This document shows, piece after piece, positions 5,540 through 38,248 of a stretch of DNA of 51,705 bases. The position numbers and the translations under genes were made by a program. The notes below the pieces were generated by a model. The model was not told the DNA's origin. It searched no databases and saw nothing but the letters and a program-made list of their open reading frames with translations. Each line of letters opens with the position of its first letter. Position 1 is the stretch's first letter. Source of the DNA: Vasconcelosia minhoensis LEGE 07310 (GTDB taxonomy: Bacteria; Cyanobacteriota; Cyanobacteriia; Phormidesmidales; Phormidesmidaceae); contig NZ_JADEXG010000035.1 of the NCBI RefSeq assembly GCF_015207255.1, forward strand, positions 1-51,705, given 5' to 3'.

Positions 5540-6100
5540 ATGGGGAGAACGTTAGAAAACAAAAAGGAGATTGTGTCTGAGCTCAAGGACAGCCTGAGCC
5601 GGTCGCAGTTAGCCCTGGTGGTGGACTACAAAGGTCTGTCGGTGGCTGAGATTAGCGATTTGCGCGATCGCTTACGGCCCAACGGCGCCACCTGCAAAAT
5701 CGCCAAAAACACGCTGATGCGAATTGCGGTTGACGGCGATGACACCTGGCAGCCGGTAACTCAGTTCCTCCAGGGCTCATCTGCCCTGGTTTTAATTGAG
5801 GAGGACTTTGGCGGCGCGATCAAAGCCTACCAGGGGTTCCAAAAAGACCGCAAAAAGACCGAACTGCGCGGTGGCGTCATGGAGGGCCGCGCCCTCAACC
5901 AGGACGACATCAAGGCGATTACCGAGCTGCCGACGAAGGAAGAGCTGATTGCTCAAATCGCCGGACTGCTCAAGGCCAACACCACCAAGATTGCGGTGGG
6001 TCTAAACGCGGTACCGACCAAGCTGGCCGTGGGCCTGAAGGAAGTGCCCAGCTCGCTGACGCGGGCAATCAAGGCCGTTTCAGAGCAGGAGCAAAGCTAG
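5540..6100 (+). CDS. rplJ: 50S ribosomal protein L10
   Basis: L10 anchors the L7/L12 dimers on the ribosome stalk. The 186-residue protein has the usual N-terminal region (ALVVDYKGLSVAEISDLRDR, then CKIAKNTLMRIA). It is slightly longer than many bacterial L10 proteins because of its C-terminal tail. That tail holds a short imperfect repeat, KIAVGLNAVPTK then KLAVGLKEVPSS, in the helical region that binds L7/L12 dimers. AAGGAGGTGA eight bases upstream fixes the start at 5540. rplL follows in the same transcript. Confidence 0.96.
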   Translation: MGRTLENKKEIVSELKDSLSRSQLALVVDYKGLSVAEISDLRDRLRPNGATCKIAKNTLMRIAVDGDDTWQPVTQFLQGSSALVLIEEDFGGAIKAYQGFQKDRKKTELRGGVMEGRALNQDDIKAITELPTKEELIAQIAGLLKANTTKIAVGLNAVPTKLAVGLKEVPSSLTRAIKAVSEQEQS

Positions 6101-6178
6101 GGCTATCGACTCTATCCCCCTGCCTGGACAATTCATTTCACACCCGTCTACCAATCAAACCCATTCACGGAGAAACCT

Positions 6179-37371: not shown

Positions 37372-38248
37372 ATGCGGCGAGATTCCATCTTTTACCATCT
37401 GTTTCAACAGTCACCCGAACTACTGTTCGAGCTGTTGGACAATCCGCCAGCCAACGCTCAGGACTACCGATTTGATGCCGTTGCGGTCAAAGAACCCAGG
37501 TTCGAAATTGACGGCGTGTTCCTGCCGCCAGAGTCGGAGTCACCAGGCGTGGTCTATTTCTGCGTTGGCGTAGCCTGCCGAAGGCATAGTTCAGCTGCAA
37601 AAGGACGAGCAGCTGTATGAGCGGCTGTTTGGCGAATTGTTTCTGTATTTTTATCGCAACCGCGATCGCTTTAGCGACTGGCAAGCCGTAGTCATCTATC
37701 CCTCGCGAACAACCGAGCAGCGTCAGACCCATCCTTACCGCGCACTGCTGGAATGCGAGCAGATGAATCGAGTCTACCTGGATGAGCTAGGCGAGATTGA
37801 CCAGCTGCCGCTAAACCTAGCGCTGATAGCGCTAACCATGATTGATGAAGCAGATGCGCCAGAGGCTGCCAGGAATCTGCTGGCCCGTTCTCAGCGAGAA
37901 AACCAGCCCCCACCGATGAATCGAGCCATAATGGATATGGTCACGACAATCATGGTGTACAAGTTTACCCATCTGAGTCAGCGAGAGGTTGAGGAAATGC
38001 TGGGAGTAAGGCTACAAGAAACTCGGGTATATCAAGAAGTTAGAGCAGAAGGTGAGGAGTTTGGTCGGCGGGATGAGGCAACATCGTTCGTCCTACGGTT
38101 GCTTACTCGTAAACTGGGCGAAGTTTCCGAAGCAGCGCAATCGCAGATCAACGACTTATCACTCCCTCAGCTAGAGTCTCTAGGAGAAGCATTACTAGAT
38201 TTCACGAGCCCGGACGACCTGGCAACGTGGCTAGCAGCGCAGGAATAG
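37372..38248 (+). pseudogene. Rpn/DUF2887-family nuclease-like gene broken by a 23-nt insertion
   Basis: The N-terminal part (MRRDSIFYHLFQQSPELLFE, YRFDAVAVKEPRFEIDGVFL) and, in another frame, the remainder (FLYFYRNRDRFSDWQAVVIY, then HPYRALLECEQMNRVYLDEL and MDMVTTIMVYKFTHLSQREV) together make a complete Rpn/PD-(D/E)XK-type protein of about 285 residues. The family normally continues GVVYFCE-VQLQKDEQLYERL. Here a 23-base element sits between the codons for Cys and Val and shifts the frame, and the first frame stops at 37618-37620. Removing the element and restoring one base rejoins the frames, so the inactivation looks recent. Confidence 0.85.
37565..37587 (+). repeat. Small dispersed repeat-like insertion (23 nt)
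   Basis: The segment starts TTGGCGTAGCC and ends GAAGGCAT, and it includes the short hairpin GCCT-GCCGA-AGGC. It interrupts an otherwise intact reading frame. Its sequence resembles the GCGTAGCCTGCCGAAGGC-type very small dispersed repeats known from filamentous cyanobacteria. No second copy is visible in the window, so mobility rests on family knowledge. Confidence 0.7.

Follow-up and report, generated by a model that had tools for sequence, protein, structure and literature searches.

A small dispersed-repeat element at the predicted catalytic glutamate codon of a cyanobacterial Rpn-type gene

In the genome of Vasconcelosia minhoensis LEGE 07310, a gene of the DUF2887 family is broken by 23 nucleotides that stand in the place of a single A, the middle base of a conserved glutamate codon. 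We consider it probable that this is a recent, recurrent and site-preferring insertion of an element of the small dispersed repeat (SDR) class at the predicted catalytic codon, which would inactivate the nuclease. An interruption of this gene by a very small repeat had already been noticed in a sequence-only reading; what is new is that the same base is occupied repeatedly in the gene family and that the codon is the predicted catalytic one. Throughout, the window is the whole stretch of DNA that was analysed, 51,705 nt of contig NZ_JADEXG010000035.1. All coordinates are window positions, and all features lie on the + strand.

The host gene and its interruption

Two open frames, 37372..37563 and 37589..38248, are the halves of a single protein with a DUF2887 and a DUF4351 domain. 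The 5' part (codons 1-64, last residues ...GVVYFC) matches positions 1-62 of PF11103 with E 1.8e-23 and is 88% identical to a paralogue. The 3' part begins VQLQKDEQLYERL, resumes with VQLQKDEQ... and carries the rest of DUF2887 (PF11103 positions 64-200, E 3.6e-45) together with DUF4351 (PF14261, E 3.8e-22). It has 219 open codons, in agreement with the earlier remark that the rest of the frame is undamaged. An uninterrupted paralogue matches DUF2887 with E 2e-77 and the TIGR01784 Rpn family with E 2e-23, above the cut-off. By sequence family the host gene is a member of the Rpn (recombination-promoting nuclease) group, as the domain matches in the fragments and in the paralogue bear out for the Rpn/DUF2887 assignment made before. 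PADLOC returned no match, and DUF2887 is not mentioned in the Rpn literature that we searched.

The site is empty in two paralogues of this genome: C97, with 80% DNA identity, and C12, with 70%. Both read FC-E-VQFQ, with the Glu encoded as GAG or GAA, and at this place the window has G-[TTGGCGTAGCCTGCCGAAGGCAT]-A. Alignment with paralogues L007 and L008 shows that the first base of the split codon GA(A/G), the G at 37564..37564, and its third base, the A at 37588..37588, are kept; the element lacking in the paralogues, TTGGCGTAGCCTGCCGAAGGCAT, occupies 37565..37587 and replaces one A. The net gain of 22 nt shifts the frame, and the product ends after 82 residues at a frame-0 stop TGA (37618..37620). 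The precise break of 23 bases proposed from the sequence is exact in its boundaries, but the net change is 22 nt and one target base is lost. The sequence-only reading had also named an objection to itself, namely that orthologues might carry the same bases in frame. The objection does not apply, since the orthologues that have these bases carry them out of frame. We likewise rejected a natural in-frame sequence: the paralogues are without the element and the interrupted genes are frameshifted.

Sequence and structure of the element

The general form of the element is a tandem of hairpins, SGC-GNA-GCS followed by TGCC-GNA-GGCA. In the window the mini-hairpins are GGC-GTA-GCC (37567..37575) and TGCC-GAA-GGCA (37576..37586), each with a GNA triloop. 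Elsewhere the first stem occurs as CGC/GCG, GGC/GCC or AGC/GCT and the second as TGCC/GGCA, TGTC/GACA, TCTC/GAGA, TACC/GGTA or TCCC/GGGA; common types are over-counted, part of the material having been fetched with near-consensus patterns, and the alternative stems are independent of that. These are compensatory types, and the N positions of both loops take all four letters. A search that fixed just the letters of the loops and a brief GT(T/A) lead, with free stems, returned 217 matches, 54 of them with both stems complete; with different letters in the loops, none of the 88 control matches had them. Taken by itself, the element is not computed to fold more stably than its shuffles, so the case for a conserved two-hairpin structure is made by stem covariation, not by folding energy. 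In DNA, GNA mini-hairpins have extraordinary stability, with melting temperatures as high as 78 C (PMC4686876). This stability suggests an intermediate of single-stranded DNA.

Copies in this and other genomes

Pattern searches of the contigs covered the window's own genome. They gave no further copy at up to 3 mismatches. A gapped pattern found one extra match, C2:8168, whose unrelated surroundings make it look like chance, and the family-wide pattern found one degenerate match only, on C24. In the 84,980-genome GTDB collection the exact 21-mer core is present in 5 contigs, four of them labelled as cyanobacteria (Cyanosarcina twice, Thermosynechococcaceae and Dolichospermum) and one as Gracilibacteria. 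The latter, L030 (JAAUUT010000082.1), has the exact cyanobacterial 21-mer and may be a mis-binned cyanobacterial contig. The element family is common in the Nostocaceae, which is our reading of a family group in which one genome and Dolichospermum sp. LEGE 00240 have a locus in common; there are 42 places in G358, 35 in G495 and 26 in G450. A chance likeness was rejected: shuffles of the window give 0.09 expected occurrences of the 18-mer core at up to 3 mismatches, and reversed-pattern controls of the element searches gave zero matches. The resemblance to very small dispersed repeats of cyanobacteria seen in the first reading holds for the family, which is dispersed in many cyanobacteria, with copies found in relatives, but not for the genome of the window, which has one good copy.

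Non-coding copies lie in heptamer arrays (AATTACG, TTTTGAA, TTTTGAC), where the element is preceded by YG and the A that would come next is absent. Copies are also found within HIP1, in GCG^ATCGC contexts.

Some further copies deserve mention for their surroundings. At the contig end of a Thermosynechococcaceae MAG (L029, about 6034-6111) the exact element sits in the anticodon loop of a tRNA-like gene, which has an anticodon arm like that of tRNA-Asn and a second small element in its T loop. This gene belongs to a degenerate tRNA array and adjoins an intact tRNA-Asn and tRNA-Gly. Some members of the element family, such as those at G450:C29:74506-74567 and comparable Nostocaceae positions, seemingly lie in frame within coding sequence, e.g. 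KFVFAKRVGDKNLQ.

Repeated occupation of one codon

The element is present at the identical base of 13 DUF2887 genes in eleven genomes including that of the window, most of these genomes having been found with patterns built for the FC^E site in searches covering 386 genomes from the phylum, 388 from the class and 217 from the family read as Nostocaceae. Besides the window, the genomes are G026, G043, G079, G100, G358, G442, G444, G450 (three genes), G495 and G555. The first case, L015 in G026, is from another family and came from a gene-wide DNA similarity search of relatives, in which the insert itself helped the match. All interrupted genes carry the element in coding-strand orientation, with a frameshift of +22 in all but the decayed G079 copy. 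The downstream frame is complete in most of them; it is lost in the L072/L090 gene, and L045 is decayed. A further decayed DUF2887 gene, L161 (G079:C1:4743500-4744700), has several small elements and heptamer repeats away from the FC^E codon.

On a 53-gene tree, the 12 interrupted genes are spread over at least 11 places. The 11 changes that this requires are each imposed by well-supported branches, a count that does not separate gains from losses. The tree neighbours of most interrupted genes are element-free, and the window gene stands with an uninterrupted paralogue (support 97/91). We favour gains over losses because the non-coding heptamer arrays follow the identical junction rule, with the element after YG and the next A lost.

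As controls we took two comparably conserved YG^AR codons elsewhere in these genes. For YERL there was no gene-fitting match in 217 genomes. For QKDE there were four imperfect matches, and the two best, both in G512, were checked and lie outside such genes. The FC^E codon gave ten matches in the same 217 genomes. The frequency of insertion elsewhere in DUF2887 genes is judged from 14 genomes and these two control codons. No plasmid or viral copies of the interrupted gene were found. As far as can be told, the site has been occupied repeatedly and independently, and the element would thus have a strong site preference.

Source of the inserted copies

Five genomes (G000, G026, G043, G442 and G450) allow copies in DUF2887 genes to be compared with copies elsewhere. 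By counts read by eye, the GGC/GCC stem is found in 7/7 of the former and in 1/29 of the latter (p about 1e-6; 2e-5 if G450 is counted once), and the resident copies have CGC/GCG or related stems. Given this mismatch, the resident pool is probably not the source of the copies in DUF2887 genes. In these five genomes they would either have travelled between Rpn-type genes or have arrived from outside. In G358, G495 and G555, the copy in the DUF2887 gene is of the resident stem type. Almost no other copies of the element exist in G026, G442 and the genome of the window, so there the donor must be external.

The predicted catalytic codon, selection and a possible internal start

In RpnA, the substitution E82A abolishes activity, and the residues around it form the pattern D63...E82-x-Q84 (PMC5350276). 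D47, E65 and Q67 are invariant in 17 genes and fit this pattern. The split codon is accordingly predicted to encode the catalytic Glu, aligned with RpnA E82 in the motif ExQ. An AlphaFold2 model (pLDDT 79) has best PDB matches that include the PD-(D/E)XK nucleases Can2, Nt.BspD6I and EndoMS; they are weak, with E above 0.05.

Comparison of interrupted genes with their closest relatives gives dN/dS of 0.08-0.14 where it can be computed, and the ratio of nonsynonymous to synonymous changes is 0.62 on interrupted branches versus 0.60 on others (p 0.87). Such similar ratios mean either that the insertions are very recent relative to the branches or that the genes still work. Recent insertion is the simpler reading because of the frameshift.

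Part of the gene could remain productive. RpnS, a small protein made from an internal start, has been linked to DUF4351 (PMC10327210). In nearly all genes there is a conserved in-frame internal Shine-Dalgarno sequence with an ATG about 135 codons past the insertion site. In the window the Shine-Dalgarno-like AGAGGT (37984..37989) precedes the in-frame ATG of a possible RpnS-like protein of 83 aa, 37997..38248, which includes DUF4351 and is intact. The Glu codon that forms this internal signal is GAG in 42/42 genes, versus 27% over all Glu codons there. This conservation suggests an RpnS-like gene within a gene in cyanobacterial DUF2887 genes, and the small protein could survive the insertion. 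An internal start directly after the element (GGAGGCATG in some copies) was also considered; it is unlikely, as the spacing is only one base.

A possible mechanism

The following course of events can be suggested. A small dispersed-repeat element would have inserted recently into the DUF2887 gene, replacing the middle A of the Glu codon of E-x-Q. The nuclease (RpnL) would be truncated, and the downstream frame could still yield the RpnS-like DUF4351 protein. The tandem GNA mini-hairpins would fold in single-stranded DNA, on the lagging strand or in intermediates of transformation or repair. Copying or joining of the folded hairpins would then take place behind YG, at the cost of the A that follows.

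A hairpin at the target was considered as the reason for the choice of site and dropped. The empty sites of dispersed copies do fold better than re-paired flanks (1/300 shuffles were as good), but a direct test of arm complementarity gave nothing, and in local hairpin formation the FC^E codon of DUF2887 genes is no outlier among YGA sites (mean rank 0.40).

A bolder proposal is that of a homing-like selfish unit of 22 nt, which would spread between Rpn-type genes via the catalytic Glu codon, without co-conversion of the flanks, by means of its mini-hairpins in DNA and an enzyme of the host, perhaps a nuclease or a polymerase. We put it forward because the stem type of the copies in the gene family differs from that of the resident pool, and we hold it to be doubtful. 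If true, this would be, to our knowledge, the smallest site-specific mobile element. The element is in any case a candidate for a place among the smallest site-seeking mobile elements.

Alternative explanations

Could the element have spread with no mobility of its own, by short-tract gene conversion between DUF2887 genes and horizontal transfer of interrupted alleles? The identical element in three divergent genes of G450, two of which have about 21 nt in common just upstream, is what such a process would leave behind, and so is the uniform stem type of the gene-family copies in the five genomes (GGC/GCC in 7/7 versus 1/29 of the resident ones). However, the flanks of interrupted genes show no excess similarity at 4, 8 or 15 codons (p 0.43-0.75), and the bases beside the element differ. 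In its third base the split codon has A or G, in most cases agreeing with the closest relatives, so that conversion tracts would need to stop at the element. The lack of a flank excess and the kin-like third base lead us to prefer insertion in place; conversion, which the flank test does not support, is retained as an unlikely rival. A little less likely still is ordinary disruption by a dispersed repeat with a weak preference for YGA, the shared site being mostly an effect of the search combined with dispensable multi-copy genes. It is true that site-specific patterns were used to find the genomes and that Rpn-type genes are accessory and numerous, with up to about 30 matches per genome. Against this stand the two other YG^AR codons, of which YERL has no gene-fitting match and QKDE four imperfect ones, the two checked lying outside such genes, where FC^E has ten, and the three genes of G450, which are interrupted at the same base with no small-gap pair of fragments elsewhere. 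L015, moreover, was met in a search with the whole gene, though the insert aided that match.

Another suggestion would be that the element is old and tolerated, passed by translational bypass, +1 frameshifting or removal from the RNA, and has been precisely lost several times. The intact downstream frame of most interrupted genes, under constraint equal to that of uninterrupted ones, is in keeping with this, and the element opens with the Val codon GTT and is followed by GTN, which would permit a hop. Yet in most copies takeoff and landing codons do not agree, and a hop would omit the predicted catalytic Glu. The loss of the downstream frame in the L072/L090 gene and the decay of L045 also speak against tolerance, and the junction rule shared with the non-coding heptamer arrays indicates that the junction was made by insertion. 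We regard this explanation as very improbable, and recent, recurrent insertion as the preferred reading.

Comparison with known elements

The SDR families of Nostoc punctiforme, described by Elhai et al. 2008 (Genome Res 18:1484), are reportedly 21-27 nt long, form hairpins with compensatory changes, have copies within heptamer arrays and HIP1, and are said to show apparent recent mobility. They, and SDR5 in particular, are the nearest known class and have in common with the present element the size class, the hairpins, the setting in heptamer arrays and HIP1, the occurrence in cyanobacteria and a seemingly recent mobility. By unit size, dispersal, compensatory structure and embedding in heptamers and HIP1, the element is of the SDR class, being set beside SDRs by description, not by sequence. 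It differs in that one codon of one gene family is occupied repeatedly and that in several genomes it is found almost only there. PMC4390886 places SDR5 within HIP1. The palindromic elements of Rickettsia (RPE) are short palindromes within coding genes and RNA genes; they measure 105-146 bp and are in frame (PMC2229807). The present element, in contrast, adds 22 nt net and shifts the frame.

Other systems resemble the element in single features. REP/REPIN sequences, which are associated with RAYT transposases and are mainly extragenic, are also short dispersed hairpin units. The bypass elements of T4 gene 60 and of yeast mitochondria (byps) are short hairpin inserts in an otherwise open coding frame; here the candidate codons, GTT and GTA/GTG/GTT, match inconsistently, and the paralogues work without the element. 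Homing introns and inteins are repeatedly found at a single conserved active-site codon within a gene family, but the present unit of 22 nt has no coding capacity and no known splicing or endonuclease.

Implications

Filled and empty forms of one exact site across many strains, with a defined junction rule, make the movement of bacterial units of about 22 nt testable. The published view of the movement reportedly favours RNA, whereas the GNA mini-hairpins point to a single-stranded DNA intermediate. For the family of Rpn-type genes, the insertion may be a way in which the gene of a toxic nuclease loses the toxin and yet keeps a possible internal antitoxin gene.
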